From NCBI RefSeq assembly GCF_034479555.1, contig NZ_CP140151.1, positions 372,001-436,000 of the forward strand: DNA of 64,000 nucleotides, written 5' to 3'. The translations under genes were made by a program, and so were the position numbers. The notes beneath the pieces are model-generated. The model was not told the DNA's origin. It ran no database searches and was given only the letters and a program-made list of their open reading frames with translations. Shown here piece after piece: positions 6,480 to 60,358 of this stretch. The DNA comes from Chromohalobacter canadensis. GTDB lineage: Bacteria; Pseudomonadota; Gammaproteobacteria; Pseudomonadales; Halomonadaceae. Position 1 is the stretch's first letter, and each line of letters begins with the position of its first letter.

Positions 6480-7663
6480 TAGCGCTCTCCTCGTTCTTGT
6501 TTCTTCGCTTGGCGTGCCGCCTGAGTGGCACGCGTCTTGGCTCGCATCTCGGCATCGACGCGCAGCAACAAGGCGACCATGACACTGCTGACTGCCAAGC
6601 TGGAGCCCCCATAGCTCAATAGCGGCAAGGTCAGCCCTTTAGTGGGCAGCATGCCCGTACTGACGGCGATATTGATAAATGCCTGTGCCCCGAACACCAG
6701 TGAAATGCCGTAGCACAGGTAAGCGGAAAAGGCCCAGCCACGCAATTCAGCTTTGCGCCCTATGCGAAGCCCGCGAAAGATAAGCAGCGCGAACAAGCAG
6801 ACGACGGCGACGGCACCCACAAGTCCTAACTCTTCGGCCAGGACCGCGAACACGAAATCGGTGTGCGCCTCAGGCAGATAAAATAGCTTCTGGACACTAT
6901 TTCCTAGCCCAAGGCCCAGCCAATGCCCACGCCCGAAGGCGATCAATGCTTGTGTCAACTGATAGCCACTGGAGTACTGATCGGCCCAGGGATTGGCAAA
7001 ACTGGTAATGCGCTCCAGGCGATAAGGCTCGGCCACGGCCAGCAATCCCCCGGCGACCACGACCACGATCATGACGAAACCGAAGCGCCCCAGCGGCGCT
7101 CCCGACATCAGCAACATGCCCATCATGCAACCGCCGATCACTACGACGGCCCCGTAATCCGGCTCGAATATCAAAAGTGCCACGTACACCCCGAGCACCA
7201 CGAACGGGCGCAAGAAGGCGCCCCAATCGCGGCGCACTTCGGGGAGATAACGTTGTAAATAATCGGCGAAGTAAACGATGAGACACAACTTGGCGACTTC
7301 CGACGCCTGGATATTGACAATGCCCAAGGGGATCCAACGCTTGCTGCCATTGACTTCGTGACCGATAAGCAGCACCGCGATAAGAAGCACGATACCCAAC
7401 AACAGCAAACCGGGCCCCCAGGAACGCCAGCGCTCAAGCGGTATACACAGCGCCACGAGCCCGAGCACGATCGAGCAGAGCACGAACACACCATGACGAA
7501 TGCTGAAGTAATAAGGGTTACCGGTAAGACTGGTCGCGATTTCAGACGACGCCGAGGTCACCATGATCCAGCCCACCAGCAACAACGAGAATGTCGCCAG
7601 CAGCAACCACCCGTCAGTCGCCTGCCCTTGGGTGGAAAGTCGTTTTTCCCAACGCGCTAGCAT
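6479..7663 (-). CDS. ftsW: Probable peptidoglycan glycosyltransferase FtsW
   Basis: FtsW is the SEDS-family polymerase that works with FtsI to make septal peptidoglycan. The 394-residue protein is almost entirely transmembrane, consistent with ten helices. It carries SEDS hallmarks such as the FAVLAEELGLVGA segment and the C-terminal GLTLPLLSYGGSSL motif. I start at MLARWEKRL (7663), which overlaps the end of murD by 7 bases. A start at 7747 would add 28 non-conserved residues lying inside murD. The C-terminus is a basic cytoplasmic tail. Confidence 0.95.
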   Translation of the reverse strand: MLARWEKRLSTQGQATDGWLLLATFSLLLVGWIMVTSASSEIATSLTGNPYYFSIRHGVFVLCSIVLGLVALCIPLERWRSWGPGLLLLGIVLLIAVLLIGHEVNGSKRWIPLGIVNIQASEVAKLCLIVYFADYLQRYLPEVRRDWGAFLRPFVVLGVYVALLIFEPDYGAVVVIGGCMMGMLLMSGAPLGRFGFVMIVVVVAGGLLAVAEPYRLERITSFANPWADQYSSGYQLTQALIAFGRGHWLGLGLGNSVQKLFYLPEAHTDFVFAVLAEELGLVGAVAVVCLFALLIFRGLRIGRKAELRGWAFSAYLCYGISLVFGAQAFINIAVSTGMLPTKGLTLPLLSYGGSSLAVSSVMVALLLRVDAEMRAKTRATQAARQAKKQERGER

Positions 7664-9024
7664 GTCGTCGCTCCGCCCTGCGTCAACCACTGTCGAAAGG
7701 CATCCCCACGCGCCATGTAATGGGGAAATTGGTCGAGGCTTGCGCACGCGGGCGACAGCATGACGGCATCACCGGCGCACGCGATGACCTGCGCCCGTCG
7801 CATGGCCGCGTCGAGATCGGGAACTCGGGTAACCGGAACGCGCCCTGACATGACATGCGCAAGGCGCTGAGCATCGCGTCCGAACACCACCACCTCGCGT
7901 GCATAACGCATCAGCGGCTCAACCAGCGGCGTGAAATCGGCGCCCTTACCGTCGCCACCCGCTAATAGAACCAGTCGGCCCTCGAGCACCGGCCCGACCC
8001 CGTCAATCGCCGCCAACGTCGCGCCCACATTGGTGCCCTTGGAGTCGTTGATCCAGCGCACGCCATCACGTTCGGTGACCAGCTCGCCCCGATGCGGCAA
8101 GCCAGGGAAACGCTCGAGGACACGACGCATCGCCATCAGCGGTAAGCCCAATTGTGCCCCCATCGCTAGCGCCGCCAGGGCATTGGCATGATTGTGTCGT
8201 CCGGGCATGCGCACACTACGCGTCGACATCAGAGGTGTGTCGCCATGCACGAGCCAGGATTCCCCATCATGCTCGGCGATGCCCCAATCGTTGCTAGAAG
8301 GGACTTGAGTGGTAAATCGCGCCACTTCGCGCACATCAGTATCAGGCCATGTAGCAGCATCATCAGCATTGACGACGGCATGCCGCGCGCCGCGAAAGAC
8401 ACGCTGCTTCGCCGTTCGGTAGCCATCCATGTCGCCGTGACGATCCAGGTGATCCTCGCAAAGATTGAGAAACGCCGCCGTTTCGGCACTCAGCCAAGCA
8501 GTGGTTTCCAACTGGAAGCTTGAGAGTTCGAGCACGAACAGCTCGGCGTCCGGAGCCTCGGCAAGCAAGTCGAGTGCCGGTGTACCGAGATTCCCCCCGA
8601 CCGCAACGCGACGCCCTGCTTCCCGTGCCATATCACCAAGCAGAGTGGTCACCGTCGATTTAGCATTGGAGCCGGTGATCGCAGCTAGCGGCGCGCGACA
8701 CGCACGCACGAAAAGCGCAATCTCGCCGACCACGTGTGGGCCTTCACCCTTGGCATTCACGTACTCGACGAGCCCCGGCGTGCGCAAATCAACCCCAGGG
8801 CTGACCACGATTTCAAGCGCCTCGCCCATATCCAGCGCTTGCAGCGGGCCGCACATCACCTCGACGTCCGGATAGGCCGCGCGAAAAGTCTCCAGGCCTG
8901 CAGGCATCTCGCGCGTATCGGCGATCATGAACGGCACTCCCTGACGGGTGAGATGCCGCGCGATCGCTTGGCCGGAGACACCCAACCCGATGATTAGCGT
9001 ATATCCAGGGGGCACCTTGGCCAT
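7657..9024 (-). CDS. murD: UDP-N-acetylmuramoylalanine--D-glutamate ligase
   Basis: MurD adds D-glutamate to UDP-MurNAc-L-Ala in the cytoplasm. The 455-residue product starts MAKVPPGYTLIIGLGVSG, where GLGVSG is the N-terminal nucleotide-binding loop. The ATP loop of the central domain is GSNAKSTVTTLL near residue 117, the usual MurD variant of the Mur-ligase P-loop. Motifs WINDSKGTNVGAT and LLAGGDGKGADF in the second half are typical of MurD. It lies one base downstream of mraY and overlaps ftsW. Confidence 0.96.
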   Translation of the reverse strand: MAKVPPGYTLIIGLGVSGQAIARHLTRQGVPFMIADTREMPAGLETFRAAYPDVEVMCGPLQALDMGEALEIVVSPGVDLRTPGLVEYVNAKGEGPHVVGEIALFVRACRAPLAAITGSNAKSTVTTLLGDMAREAGRRVAVGGNLGTPALDLLAEAPDAELFVLELSSFQLETTAWLSAETAAFLNLCEDHLDRHGDMDGYRTAKQRVFRGARHAVVNADDAATWPDTDVREVARFTTQVPSSNDWGIAEHDGESWLVHGDTPLMSTRSVRMPGRHNHANALAALAMGAQLGLPLMAMRRVLERFPGLPHRGELVTERDGVRWINDSKGTNVGATLAAIDGVGPVLEGRLVLLAGGDGKGADFTPLVEPLMRYAREVVVFGRDAQRLAHVMSGRVPVTRVPDLDAAMRRAQVIACAGDAVMLSPACASLDQFPHYMARGDAFRQWLTQGGATTC

Positions 9025-20939: not shown

Positions 20940-20961
20940 AGCAGGGTCAAAAGACCCTGCT
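20940..20961. terminator. Hairpin between convergent dolP and sspB
   Basis: A 9-base perfect stem AGCAGGGTC / GACCCTGCT with an AAAA loop lies 7 bases after the dolP stop and just before the sspB stop. It has only short T tracts, so it may act weakly for both genes. Confidence 0.65.
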
Positions 20962-24531: not shown

Positions 24532-24724
24532 GGGGGCGAAACACACCTCGGCTGAACGATGAAAGCTGCCATTATACGCGTCATCACGACACTTGCATGG
24601 ACACGCGCGGCATGGTGCCACACTTTCGGGTTTGACCCGCTGCGCCAAGACACCGATATAATAGCCATGCTTGGTATGCCATCGCATCGCAACCGCATGC
24701 CCCGTGACGATCAAGGAGAGCATT

Positions 24725-25183
24725 GTGAACGAGAGCAACATCGACTGGATCCTAGCCATCGCGTGCTTTCTGGCAGGCATTGGCATCGGTGCCCTCGGCT
24801 ACCATCTGCTGAACGCCAACGTGGCCCGCAACCAGAAGGTTCGTCAACGCCTGGCAGAGGCAGAACTGGAACTCAGCCAAGTAAAGGATGCACTGAACGA
24901 CCATTTCGCTAAGGCTTCTGAGCTGGTCAACAGCATCCAGCGTCAGAGCCATGAGCTTGAGCAGCAGTTATCTCAAGGTGCTGACCGTCTCGTCGACGAC
25001 CTGCAGCTCAAGCGTCGCTTGCACCCGCACCAGGAGGGTGAGACGCAAGAAGAAGGCGCCGGGCCACCCCAGATGCCACGCGACTACGCTGAGGGCACTC
25101 AGGGCACACTCTCGGAAGACTATGGCCTCGAACCACGCAAACAGCGCGTCACCGAAGAAGAGACAACGCCGCCGCGCTACTGA
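24725..25183 (+). CDS. zapG: Inner-membrane protein ZapG (YhcB, DUF1043)
   Basis: ZapG/YhcB is a membrane-anchored coiled-coil protein that links division and envelope growth. The 152-residue product starts at a GTG (24725) with a good AAGGAG site upstream. It has one membrane segment at about residues 8-26 (WILAIACFLAGIGIGALGYH), a coiled-coil-like Glu/Gln-rich stretch at about residues 38-90 and a polar, Pro-rich tail. It is divergent from zapE. A hairpin terminator follows. Confidence 0.9.
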   Translation: MNESNIDWILAIACFLAGIGIGALGYHLLNANVARNQKVRQRLAEAELELSQVKDALNDHFAKASELVNSIQRQSHELEQQLSQGADRLVDDLQLKRRLHPHQEGETQEEGAGPPQMPRDYAEGTQGTLSEDYGLEPRKQRVTEEETTPPRY

Positions 25184-26148: not shown

Positions 26149-27084
26149 ATGCGTCGCTCACTGATGTCGCTCGTCTGGCCCATCATCAGTGGCATCCTGC
26201 TCGCCATCGTGCTGCTCAACGCCTTCCCCCAGCTGATGGGCGAGCGCACCGCCGACGATGCCGCCACGCCAGTGCCCGATACCAGCGCCGTGCGCGCCAT
26301 CGCTGAACGTGCCGATACCGCCGAACACGCGCCGGAAGTCATCGAGGCGGCGCCCCTGAACAGATCTAAAGGCCCCGCGAGCTACGCCAGTGCCGTGAAC
26401 AAGGCAGCCCCTGCCGTCGTCAACATCTATTCGTCGCGGATGGTCGAGCGTAGCGAGCACCCACTGATGTCCGACCCTTTTTTCCAGCAATTCTTCGGCA
26501 AGGACATGCCGCAACGTCAGCGCATGCTCTCTAGCCTGGGTTCGGGGGTCATCGTCAGCGCCGAAGGGTACGTACTGACCAACAATCATGTCATACGCGA
26601 TGCCGATGAGATTCAGGTCGCCCTGCGCGACGGTCGTGAAACACTTGCCAAGGTCGTGGGCACAGACCCCGAGAGCGACCTGGCGGTACTCAAGATTCCC
26701 AGCGAAGATCTTCCCGTCATCCAGCTCACTGACTCCGAGCAGGTCGCCATCGGCGATGTCAGCCTCGCGATCGGCAACCCCTTTGGAGTCGGGCAAACCG
26801 TCACCATGGGCATCATCAGTGCCACGGGGCGTAACCATCTCGGTCTGAATGCTTACGAAGACTTCATCCAGACCGATGCCGCCATCAACCCCGGCAACTC
26901 CGGTGGGGCACTGGTCAATGCAGAGGGCGCACTCGTGGGGATCAATACTGCGATCTTCTCACGTTCGGGAGGCTCACAAGGCATCGGGTTCGCCATCCCC
27001 GCCAACCTGGCTCACCAAGTACTCGATCAGATCGTCGCCCATGGCCGCGTCATTCGTGGCTGGGCATCGATGTTCAGGCGATGA
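26149..27084 (+). CDS. DegS/AlgW-type periplasmic serine protease, truncated by frameshift before its PDZ domain
   Basis: DegS/AlgW is the inner-membrane-anchored site-1 protease that cleaves the anti-sigma factor RseA/MucA in the sigma-E (AlgU) envelope stress response. This 311-residue product has a membrane anchor at about residues 8-26 and a complete trypsin-like domain with the triad His147 (NNHVIR), Asp177 (SDLAVL) and Ser251 (GNSGGAL). The family continues as ...RGWLGIDVQAM into a PDZ domain, but here the frame changes after Trp305 and stops six codons later. Restoring four bases (a lost copy of CTGG near 27058-27064) rejoins it to the PDZ frame, giving a normal 407 residues. It could be a true mutation, a phase-variable tract or a sequencing error. 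Confidence 0.85.
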   Translation: MRRSLMSLVWPIISGILLAIVLLNAFPQLMGERTADDAATPVPDTSAVRAIAERADTAEHAPEVIEAAPLNRSKGPASYASAVNKAAPAVVNIYSSRMVERSEHPLMSDPFFQQFFGKDMPQRQRMLSSLGSGVIVSAEGYVLTNNHVIRDADEIQVALRDGRETLAKVVGTDPESDLAVLKIPSEDLPVIQLTDSEQVAIGDVSLAIGNPFGVGQTVTMGIISATGRNHLGLNAYEDFIQTDAAINPGNSGGALVNAEGALVGINTAIFSRSGGSQGIGFAIPANLAHQVLDQIVAHGRVIRGWASMFRR

Positions 27085-27368
27085 CCCCCGATCTAGCCTC
27101 ATCATTCGGCCTCAAGACCCTGACAGGCGTAGTCATCGCCAGCGTCGTACCCGACGGCCCAGGCGATAAGGCCGGCCTGCAGCCGGGGGACGTGCTCATG
27201 TCCATCAACGGCGAGCCTATCGTCGATGCCCGCGAGGCCATGGCCGATATCGCCGAGATTTCCCCCGGCACACAGCTCCCCATTACCATCGTGCGTGATG
27301 GAGAAAAACGCGAGATCACACTGACGGCAGGCGAACGCCCCGAAGCGTCAGAATCTGAGGTACAGTAA
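27081..27368 (+). pseudogene. PDZ-domain remnant of the DegS/AlgW-type protease
   Basis: This 95-codon frame encodes the PDZ domain that should be fused to the preceding protease: TGVVIASVVPDGPGDKAGLQPGDVLMSINGEPI is the PDZ core with the carboxylate-binding region. In DegS the PDZ domain senses misfolded outer-membrane protein C-termini and restrains the protease. Its ATG overlaps the upstream TGA as ATGA, so re-initiation could in principle make a free PDZ protein, but without a signal peptide it would stay in the cytoplasm. I treat it as the detached half of a broken gene. Confidence 0.8.
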
Positions 27369-43030: not shown

Positions 43031-43038
43031 CCGAGCGT

Positions 43039-44379
43039 TTACTCGCCGGCCACCGTCATGTCATCGATCAGCCAACTCCCGGTGTGTACACTGCCGCGCG
43101 TATCGGTATCGTTGCCCACACCTTGAAGATTGGCGAACATATCGCGCAAGTTGCCGGCAATGGTGAACTCCTCGACGGGATGCTGGATCTTGCCATCTTC
43201 GACCCAGAAGCCCGACGCACCGCGCGAATAATCGCCGGTCACGCCGTTGACGCCTTGGCCCATCAACTCGGTAACGAGTACGCCGCGCCCCATTTGCGCG
43301 AGCAATTCATCCCGTGAGACGAGAGGCGCGTCGATACGCAGATTGCGCGCCCCACCGGCATTCCCGGTCGTGGTCATCCCCAGACGCCGCGCGCTATACG
43401 CCGAGAGCATGTAACTCGCCAAGCGCCCCTTGTCGAGGAAGACGTTCTCGCGCGTGGCGACGCCATCGTTATCGAAGGCCGTGCTCGCCATGGCGCCATA
43501 TTCACGCGGCCGTTCGCGCAGCGTGAACCACTCGGGGAAGATAGGCTCACCCAACTGACCGCACAGGAAGGATGCCTCGCGGTACAAGGCGCCCCCAGCG
43601 ATGGCGCCCATGAAACTGCCCACCAGTCCGCTGGCAAGCTCAGGCGCAAAGAGCACCGGCATCCGCCCCGTCGCTGGTGAGGTTGCCCCCAACCGGGCCA
43701 ACGTCTTCTCGGCGGCACGCCGCCCCACCACCTCGGGCGACTGCAGATCCGCCGGATTGCGTACCGAGGTATAGTCGTAATCGCGCTGCATGTCCGCCCC
43801 CTGACCGGCGATCAACATGCACGACAGCGAATGGCGGCTTCCGCGCTGGCTACCCAGAAATCCATGACTATTGCCGTAAACGCGCACGCCCTCACCGCTG
43901 GATAGGCTCGCGCCCTCGGAATTGGCGATACCCTCGACCCCACGACCGGCGGACTCGCACGCAAGCGCCAGCTCAATGGCGTCGTCGGTGCTCAACGGCC
44001 ACGGGTAATGGACGCCGAGATCCGGCAATTCCGTCGCCATCAGCGCCGCATCGGCCAAGCCCGAGGCCGGGTCTTCCGCGGTATAGCGCGCAATATCCAG
44101 CGCTTTCTCGACCACCGCGCGCAAAGATTCATCGCTCGCATCGGATGTCGACACGCTGCCCTTGCGCTGCCCCACATAAACGGTCACCGCGATCCCCTGA
44201 TCGCGCGATAGCTCGACGTTTTCCACGTCGCCCAGGCGTACACCGACCTCGATTCCCTGGTCCACGCTGGCACCCACCTCACACGCATCGGCGCCCAATC
44301 GCTTGGCCAATTCCAAGGCCTGCGCGACGCGTGCCTCCAAGCGTGCTTGCTGCTCTACGGCATCGAAGGCCTGGCTCAT
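43039..44379 (-). CDS. pmbA: Metalloprotease PmbA (TldE)
   Basis: PmbA/TldE forms a heterodimer with TldD, a zinc protease that matures microcin B17 and CcdA in E. coli; the general role is unknown. The 446-residue product belongs to the TldD/PmbA family, with RDQGIAVTVYVGQRKGSVSTSD in the N-domain and GVNGVTGDYSRGASGFWVEDG near residue 380. As expected for the E subunit it lacks the HExxxH zinc motif. It is divergent from darP, as in E. coli, and tldD lies only 740 bases away here. Confidence 0.95.
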   Translation of the reverse strand: MSQAFDAVEQQARLEARVAQALELAKRLGADACEVGASVDQGIEVGVRLGDVENVELSRDQGIAVTVYVGQRKGSVSTSDASDESLRAVVEKALDIARYTAEDPASGLADAALMATELPDLGVHYPWPLSTDDAIELALACESAGRGVEGIANSEGASLSSGEGVRVYGNSHGFLGSQRGSRHSLSCMLIAGQGADMQRDYDYTSVRNPADLQSPEVVGRRAAEKTLARLGATSPATGRMPVLFAPELASGLVGSFMGAIAGGALYREASFLCGQLGEPIFPEWFTLRERPREYGAMASTAFDNDGVATRENVFLDKGRLASYMLSAYSARRLGMTTTGNAGGARNLRIDAPLVSRDELLAQMGRGVLVTELMGQGVNGVTGDYSRGASGFWVEDGKIQHPVEEFTIAGNLRDMFANLQGVGNDTDTRGSVHTGSWLIDDMTVAGE

Positions 44380-55659: not shown

Positions 55660-55699
55660 AGCATCCTCGTCAGGATTCGAACCAGGAGTCATATTTTCC

Positions 55700-58636: not shown

Positions 58637-60358
58637 TCACCTCAGCCACCACGACAGCAATAACAGCAGCAACAGTACACCGGCCACGGCTTTCCACAGC
58701 GTGGCCGGCGTCTGCCAAGACTGACGTGCGACGCCGTCTTCGCTCCGCCTGGGTGTACGCAGGTGGTAGGCGAACTCGCCCAGGCGGCGAAACCGCAGTG
58801 CACGCTGGGGATCGAGCGCGCGCCGCAGGGCACCATCGAGTGCGGCGTCGATGGCGGGGTTGTAGCGACGCGCACTGGTGTAGCTCATACGCTCGAGGTC
58901 GGTATGGCTGCGCAATTCGTTGGGCGCCAGCGCATAGGGCTGATGTCCGGTCAGCAACCAGTAGATGGTCGAGGCTAGCTCGTATTGATCGCTGCGCCGC
59001 CCTACTTCGGTGTCCAGCGCGTATTCCGGTGCGCTGTGCTCATTTAACCCCACCTGACGCGCCAGTTCGCGCGCGGCTTGCTGGCTGTCGCTTTCACGCA
59101 AATGGCAAGCGCCGAAATCCGTCAGCACCAGTTGCCCATGTGAATCGACCATCAGGTTATCGGGGTGGATGTTCTGATGCAGCACATCGCGGCGGTGCAG
59201 GGCCTGCACTGCCTTGACCAACTGCCGCGCCAAATCCAGGCGTGCCTCGAGACTCGCCTGAGGGTGACGCAGCGCCCAGTCACTGAGCGATTCGCCCTTG
59301 ATGTACTCGAGCAAGTAATACTGATAGCGACGCGGGCGGGCCGGGTCCACGACCTTGGCGACGAACGGGGAGTTGACCCGCTGCACGATCCACTGCTGAA
59401 GCGCGAAATGCTCTTGGTAGGCATTGCGCAGCGACAGCTCTGGGCTCGGGGCCTTCATCACCATCTCGCGCTCGTTGCGCGCATCATGCACGCGATAGAC
59501 ACGCGACTTGGCCGTACGCGATAACACCTCCTGCACCTCAAACCCATCGAGACGCTCTCCAGGCGTCAATTCAGGGGGCACCGGCAAGTCGCCATACAAC
59601 GGTACGGGATGCTCGGGCTCGATTTCCTCGGGCAGCCGGTCGATACGCACCAATTGGAAACAGAATTGGTCGCCGCCGTACCCGCGCTCCTGCGCGCGGG
59701 AAAGCGCCGATTCGGCCAAGCGTTCGCAGGTCGCATCGAGATCGCTGACATCGGCACGGATCAGTTGTACGAAGTCCGAGGGCAACAGGGTGCCGCGTAC
59801 GGCCTGGGTGGTGAACAGGAAAAGATCACCCTGCTTGAGCGAATCCGTTACGTAATCGATGTCGAGGCTGCCGTCCATGCCCAACGCGCGCGACGGATAG
59901 CGATAGCCGCCCAGATCGGTGACATGATCTCGGGACAATTGCTCGAATTCGGCGCCCCGTAGACGAAACACCAGTGTGTCGCCCATATGGAACAGGTGCA
60001 TCTCACGACGACGAAACACCATTGCCGATAGCGAGCAGATATAACTACCGCCTTCGATGTAGGCGCTTTGGCTATAGCTCCAGCCATTCAGGGCGCGCAG
60101 CACGCGATGCGCCGATGTCTTGACGTCCCAATGCTCCGGCGTCGAATAGTAATCGGCGAGAAAGCCCCGTACGCTCAGGTCTCCGGCTTGTTTGGCGATG
60201 GCATTGCGCCAGGTGGAATCACTGATCAGGGCGCAGGCGCCCTTGGCGGACAACTGCGAGCCACCGGGTATCTGCACCGACATCGAACTGCGATGGCGAC
60301 GCCGATCCGGTGCCACGAATGCCTGGCCGAAGCTGATAGAAAGGCTGCTTTCCGTCAA
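58637..60358 (-). CDS. PP2C-like phosphatase / Ser-Thr kinase-like fusion protein with degenerate active sites and a C-terminal membrane anchor
   Basis: The 573-residue product joins an N-terminal PP2C-like domain (about 1-240), a protein-kinase-like domain (about 265-535) and a C-terminal membrane helix (about 555-571, LWKAVAGVLLLLLLLSWW). The family is annotated as bifunctional protein-serine/threonine kinase/phosphatase. In the PP2C part Asp47 and Asp230 remain, but the usual DG is Asp-Ser (47-48), the SDG aspartate is Gln185 and the N-terminal NxD motif is missing. In the kinase part Lys302 and DFG (414-416) remain, but the HRD aspartate is Asn396 (HQNIHPDN) and the Gly-rich loop lacks glycines. 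The TTG at 60358 has AAGGAG 7 bases upstream. Enzymatic activity is doubtful; a binding or scaffold role is possible. Confidence 0.82.
   Translation of the reverse strand: MTESSLSISFGQAFVAPDRRRHRSSMSVQIPGGSQLSAKGACALISDSTWRNAIAKQAGDLSVRGFLADYYSTPEHWDVKTSAHRVLRALNGWSYSQSAYIEGGSYICSLSAMVFRRREMHLFHMGDTLVFRLRGAEFEQLSRDHVTDLGGYRYPSRALGMDGSLDIDYVTDSLKQGDLFLFTTQAVRGTLLPSDFVQLIRADVSDLDATCERLAESALSRAQERGYGGDQFCFQLVRIDRLPEEIEPEHPVPLYGDLPVPPELTPGERLDGFEVQEVLSRTAKSRVYRVHDARNEREMVMKAPSPELSLRNAYQEHFALQQWIVQRVNSPFVAKVVDPARPRRYQYYLLEYIKGESLSDWALRHPQASLEARLDLARQLVKAVQALHRRDVLHQNIHPDNLMVDSHGQLVLTDFGACHLRESDSQQAARELARQVGLNEHSAPEYALDTEVGRRSDQYELASTIYWLLTGHQPYALAPNELRSHTDLERMSYTSARRYNPAIDAALDGALRRALDPQRALRFRRLGEFAYHLRTPRRSEDGVARQSWQTPATLWKAVAGVLLLLLLLSWWLR

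Follow-up and report, generated by a model that had tools for sequence, protein, structure and literature searches.

One gene in the genome of this salt-loving Chromohalobacter is broken in the middle. The gene is algW, whose protease normally signals damage to the cell envelope. A loss of four bases lies between its protease domain and its PDZ domain, which are now read in different frames. Judged by the sequences compared, this genome is alone in having the break among those read. The window, which is the whole stretch of DNA analysed, is 64 kb long (G000:C1:372001-436000). It comes from a genome of 3,595,165 bases that consists of a single contig and is rated 100% complete.

The overall account we prefer is given a probability of about one half. 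It holds that a slippage deletion split algW, that the remaining protease fragment would be inactive or nearly so, that site-1 cleavage of MucA would then fail, and that the AlgU response would be blunted. As an allele, it is of the loss-of-function type: an ordinary case of a broken gene, seen in one genome. No report of a split algW allele was found among the matches listed in the literature searched. For users of the strain, the break means that its envelope-stress response may be atypical for the genus.

Structure of the split gene

The first of the two open reading frames runs from 26149 to 27084 on the plus strand and codes for 311 amino acids: an N-terminal membrane anchor and a complete trypsin-like protease domain. 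The domain matches Trypsin_2 (Pfam) with an E-value of 8.3e-36. The catalytic residues His147, Asp177 and Ser251 are all present. They were assigned to H123, D153 and S227 of AlgW by a constant offset of 24, from the alignment of P0002, an intact relative. Against the degP_htrA_DO family (TIGR02037) the protease piece scores 335.8 bits, which is under the cut-off of 416.2. The nine other genomes of the genus match the protease at 89-97%; over residues 1-307, seven of them are 96-97% identical and the remaining two 89-90%.

For 305 native residues this frame is the frame of the family, from which it departs directly after the motif RGW. Six out-of-frame residues and a stop codon follow. The stop overlaps, as ATGA, with the start of the second frame, which runs from 27081 to 27368 on the plus strand, codes for 95 amino acids and starts at a native internal methionine. 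This is the detached PDZ domain (PDZ_2 in Pfam, E-value 5.2e-14). The match begins at profile position 12, so the first strand of the domain is missing. The two frames overlap at 26835-27084, or over 250 bases.

A first-pass annotation of this DNA, made from the letters alone, had described much the same arrangement: a complete trypsin-like domain with three catalytic residues, a stop six codons past RGW, and a PDZ domain in another frame. The open reading frames and the profile matches bear this out.

Site-1 proteases of the AlgW/DegS kind are recognised by their cleavage of MucA/RseA on a peptide signal and, in the sequence, by three things. The first is a membrane-anchored trypsin-like domain with a His-Asp-Ser triad, which is found here; the anchor at residues 2-31 of P0002 gives a weak alignment to the AlgW anchor. 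The second is a single PDZ domain at the C-terminal end of the same polypeptide, and here it is in the other frame. The third is a conserved neighbourhood together with the partner genes algU, mucA and an M50 site-2 protease, and these are present. On the 3' side of algW there are hisD-, hisG- and murA-like frames (named by eye).

Apart from algW, one Trypsin_2 gene was found in the genome, and it is MucD-like (L125:12300-13733). HtrA proteases of this MucD/DegP type share the architecture of a protease followed by PDZ, but have two PDZ stretches, and this one is a separate gene beside mucA that is whole here.

Comparison with relatives

When aligned to each of three other Chromohalobacter genomes (G002, G005 and G007), the window is four bases shorter at about 27056, which agrees with the four-base loss first proposed from this sequence by itself. 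The alignment to G005 forms a single block with 95.4% identity across 64 kb. At this site G005, the nearest of the three, has an 11-base tract with a period of four (delimited by eye), which amounts to 2.75 copies. The window keeps seven of these bases, or 1.75 copies, as a remnant within the junction at 27052..27066 (plus strand). The four lost bases are one unit of the tract, and this is the signature of slippage. Going by the alignments, the junction is best read as a short four-base repeat that has recently lost one unit.

Each of the nine other Chromohalobacter genomes carries a single, intact algW, and within the genus the intact orthologues are 405-424 amino acids long. The gene of 407 codons that the first-pass annotation obtained by putting four bases back fits this range. 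The two-gene structure is not found in these relatives.

The junction was also scanned in two larger sets, which have most Chromohalobacter genomes in common. It is intact, and in frame through RGW[L/M]G, in all 29 whole-genome loci (those given among 57 other genomes). The second set holds the best 80 of 164 relatives found, in named genomes, and here the junction is in frame in 79; the 80th locus, L093, ends at a contig edge. Relatives in the named records include C. canadensis, C. sarecensis, C. beijerinckii, C. moromii and C. marismortui.

More widely, 199 of 201 sampled genomes of the family have an algW match, and the two without one are 77% and 87% complete. Among the 150 of these 199 matches that are listed, the open frame is at least 408 amino acids long in 149 other family genomes, versus 338 here.

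The break looks young. Compared with G005, the PDZ frame has 7 silent and 3 replacement changes in its 95 codons, and the protease part has 45 silent and 10 replacement changes in 305. Relative to silent changes, replacements are somewhat more frequent in the PDZ frame than in the protease part, although these are small numbers. Since the detached frame is without clear decay relative to G005, the split would appear to be recent.

Real allele or assembly error

It could be that the break is an isolated sequencing or assembly error and that the strain itself has an intact algW. This is unlikely, but it has to be taken seriously. All relatives that were read keep an intact gene, and the flanks on both sides of the break are unremarkable and still close to those relatives, as fits such an error. 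In addition, it would be surprising for a fit wild strain to lose a gene that is kept by all other listed genomes of the family. That surprise fits a mutation in culture and an error equally well.

The rest of the assembly speaks against an error. Frames counted as conserved if they have 100 codons or more in G005 and are full length also in G002; such frames overlap each other. The alignment to G002 stops at window position 58743, so the test covers all but the last 5.3 kb. Within it, 105 of 106 conserved frames are whole, and the sole exception is algW. This means that the assembly is not generally indel-ridden. A loss of four bases at a site that is not a homopolymer is also not the usual long-read error.

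The idea of a generally indel-ridden assembly had been prompted by an oddly ended YhcB (24671-25183, by eye). It was rejected, as there is no indel at that gene common to the three relatives. Other gaps that are not a multiple of three against all three relatives lie at 20949, at about 43037-43039 and at 55693-55695. The first two are between frames or at their extreme edge, and the third is just 5' of an ATG (by eye).

The picture outside the window is similar. In the 86 kb upstream, 2 of 138 conserved frames are partial. One partial upstream frame, o149, proved to be a spurious chain and was left out of account. Of the 34 conserved frames in the algU stretch, 33 are intact, none is partial and one is absent. 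Small gaps common to both relatives number 17 upstream and 3 in the algU stretch, taken as a count only. The test was also reversed, by seeking the frames of this genome in G005. Counted in this way, 3 of 118 frames in the window are partial, and upstream 3 are partial and 2 absent out of 156.

The other partial frame upstream of the window is a gene that by eye resembles ketopantoate reductase and has lost most of its length here (L155 about 7636-8039, or G000:C1 about 333,636-334,039). It is whole in G005 and G002, and what this genome has is a long deletion.

Further evidence comes from the protein database. A PDZ protein identical to the 95-residue fragment (P0121) has one entry, which sits on a contig of 97,880 bp and not on the contig of 3,595,165 bp. 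Because the contig has another size, this suggests that a second assembly carries the same break, possibly with the same reads as its source. From what the assemblies contain, the break likely exists in the living strain.

The AlgU pathway and MucB

The partners of AlgW are present as whole frames, for algU and mucD on a frame-level look. The genes algU, mucA (270 amino acids) and mucD form a cluster at about 3.336-3.340 Mb, and one M50 protease was found, with an open frame of 464 amino acids. Compared with seven of the nine relatives (L138 and L141 were left out), MucA has seven residues that are unique to this genome. A compensating mutation in MucA was sought in the same comparison, and the protein is not truncated.

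For MucB things are different throughout the genus. None of the ten Chromohalobacter genomes (G000-G009) has a match to MucB_RseB (PF03888). The profile is matched in 13 of 15 other genomes of the taxonomic family and, outside that family but within the order, in 12 of 13. In this genome mucD comes straight after mucA. The interval between them is 343 bases long (L125:11957-12299, or G000:C1 about 3,337,956-3,338,298) and holds short overlapping frames only.

The genus seems to have lost MucB, the second brake on the pathway; a MucB that has diverged beyond the reach of the profile is also possible. Because no MucB was found, the PDZ domain of AlgW would be the only known gate on the cleavage of MucA in Chromohalobacter. 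This genome then seems to have lost the PDZ brake in a genus that was apparently already without MucB. Of the two, the absence of MucB from Chromohalobacter deserves more attention than the break in algW.

Two genomes from other genera of the family, G014 and G015, also have no MucB_RseB match. The family may for this reason have lost MucB on more than one occasion.

Expected effect on the protease

In the account preferred here, in this Chromohalobacter lineage replication slippage would recently have deleted one four-base unit of algW. What the cell would now make is a trypsin-like protease that keeps its membrane anchor but has no PDZ sensor. The PDZ domain of AlgW-type enzymes does two things: it holds the protease off, and it also keeps the activation loops in their active form. 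As such enzymes need the domain for both restraint and active loops, the fragment of 311 residues most likely has little or no activity. MucA, the anti-sigma factor, would then no longer be cut at site 1, and the AlgU envelope-stress response would be blunted or non-inducible. While the difference in the DNA can be read directly from the alignments, we infer its outcome for function.

Much depends on whether the protein is of the AlgW or of the DegS type. Among solved structures, AlgW of Pseudomonas aeruginosa is the best match of the intact relative P0002, with an E-value of 3.7e-134, versus 3.1e-79 for the best DegS. In addition, its alignment to AlgW is ungapped through the LA loop. The P. 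aeruginosa protein (PDB 7co2, 7co3, 7co5 and 7co7) and P0002 thus have in common a long ungapped LA loop, the triad, the PDZ domain and a weakly matching anchor. What sets the present case apart from P. aeruginosa is that here the PDZ domain has a reading frame of its own, and that no MucB partner was found in Chromohalobacter. DegS of Escherichia coli (2qf0, 3lgi) has the same role of site-1 protease, in the sigma-E pathway. It is however more distant from P0002, has an LA loop of another length and, in PMC8545111, is described as partially active without PDZ.

PMC8545111 states that activity is partly retained in DegS-deltaPDZ and totally lost in AlgW-deltaPDZ. For the latter it cites a paper on DegS, and its Table 3 assays, of proteins without PDZ, only a chimera of AlgW and DegS. 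The expectation about PDZ loss comes from this one source, and the evidence is good but not first-hand. The same text reports that an alanine change at either M342 or R374 of the PDZ domain abolished the activity of P. aeruginosa AlgW. Both residues are conserved in P0002, so the same dependence on PDZ is likely. Two of the six interdomain residues tested in that paper differ in P0002, with E266 being Q and R347 being E. Since the protein is AlgW-type and not DegS-type, a dead or nearly dead protease is to be expected over a constitutive one. P. aeruginosa PAO1 is viable without algW.

A second possibility is that the truncated protease behaves like DegS and is partly constitutive. MucA would then be cleaved without a signal and AlgU would be raised, with no known gate left. 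The protease domain is indeed complete and has its triad, and all ten Chromohalobacter genomes are without a match to MucB. Also, the break point is close to where short crystallised DegS chains end: these chains (for example 2qf0 and 3lgi), which from their size we take to be PDZ-less constructs, align to P0002 residues 74-303, near the end of the 305 native residues in the window. The residual activity of DegS-deltaPDZ described above would fit as well.

A constitutive protease is nevertheless improbable, given that the protein is AlgW-type and that, in PMC8545111 as well, total loss of activity is stated for AlgW without PDZ. In addition MucA shows no truncation, and algU and mucD are whole frames. 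The first-pass annotation had proposed such an ungated protease. What stands of this is the gene, which is of the algW/degS type and has had its PDZ domain split off by a four-base loss; the constitutive activity followed the logic of DegS and is not supported for a protein of the AlgW type.

Under the account preferred here, a pathway that has become impossible to switch on appears likelier than one that is always on. The wider statement that MucA cleavage has lost both of its known brakes, and that the AlgU pathway is permanently open or permanently closed, we regard as quite doubtful. If the break is real, a strain with an AlgW that has no PDZ would offer an experiment of nature on the purpose of the sensor domain. 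It would reveal the default state of the pathway: off, as for AlgW, or on, as for DegS.

Two working pieces or a switch

It is very improbable that both pieces are made and cooperate, by re-initiation at the ATGA or by ribosomal frameshifting. The ATGA and the overlap of the two frames would allow for it, but the relatives read have a single frame. A programmed -1 frameshift gene was rejected, since the canonical slippery heptamer is absent from all 250 bases of the overlap (26835-27084). Re-initiation, which had been suggested from the sequence, is possible in principle, but the PDZ piece would have no membrane anchor, no signal sequence and no first PDZ strand. Because it starts inside the domain and without an anchor, it would stay in the cytoplasm. 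This leaves the suggestion unsupported.

A phase-variable switch, in which the four-base unit would be gained and lost in turn, was the other suggestion made earlier, and it is hardly credible. The deletion is indeed one unit of a short tandem tract, and the exact two-unit form is found at the junction in 21 of 29 and 49 of 79 readable loci. A phase-variable repeat should however be longer than chance allows and vary in copy number, and neither is seen here: the copies are few (2.75 in G005, 1.75 in the window), no other locus read has a frame shift at the junction, and tracts of at least 11 bases occur in the window as often as chance predicts, with 4 seen versus 4.4 +/- 1.9 in 30 simulations. 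The four-base tract is there because these are the codons of Gly-Trp-Leu-Gly.
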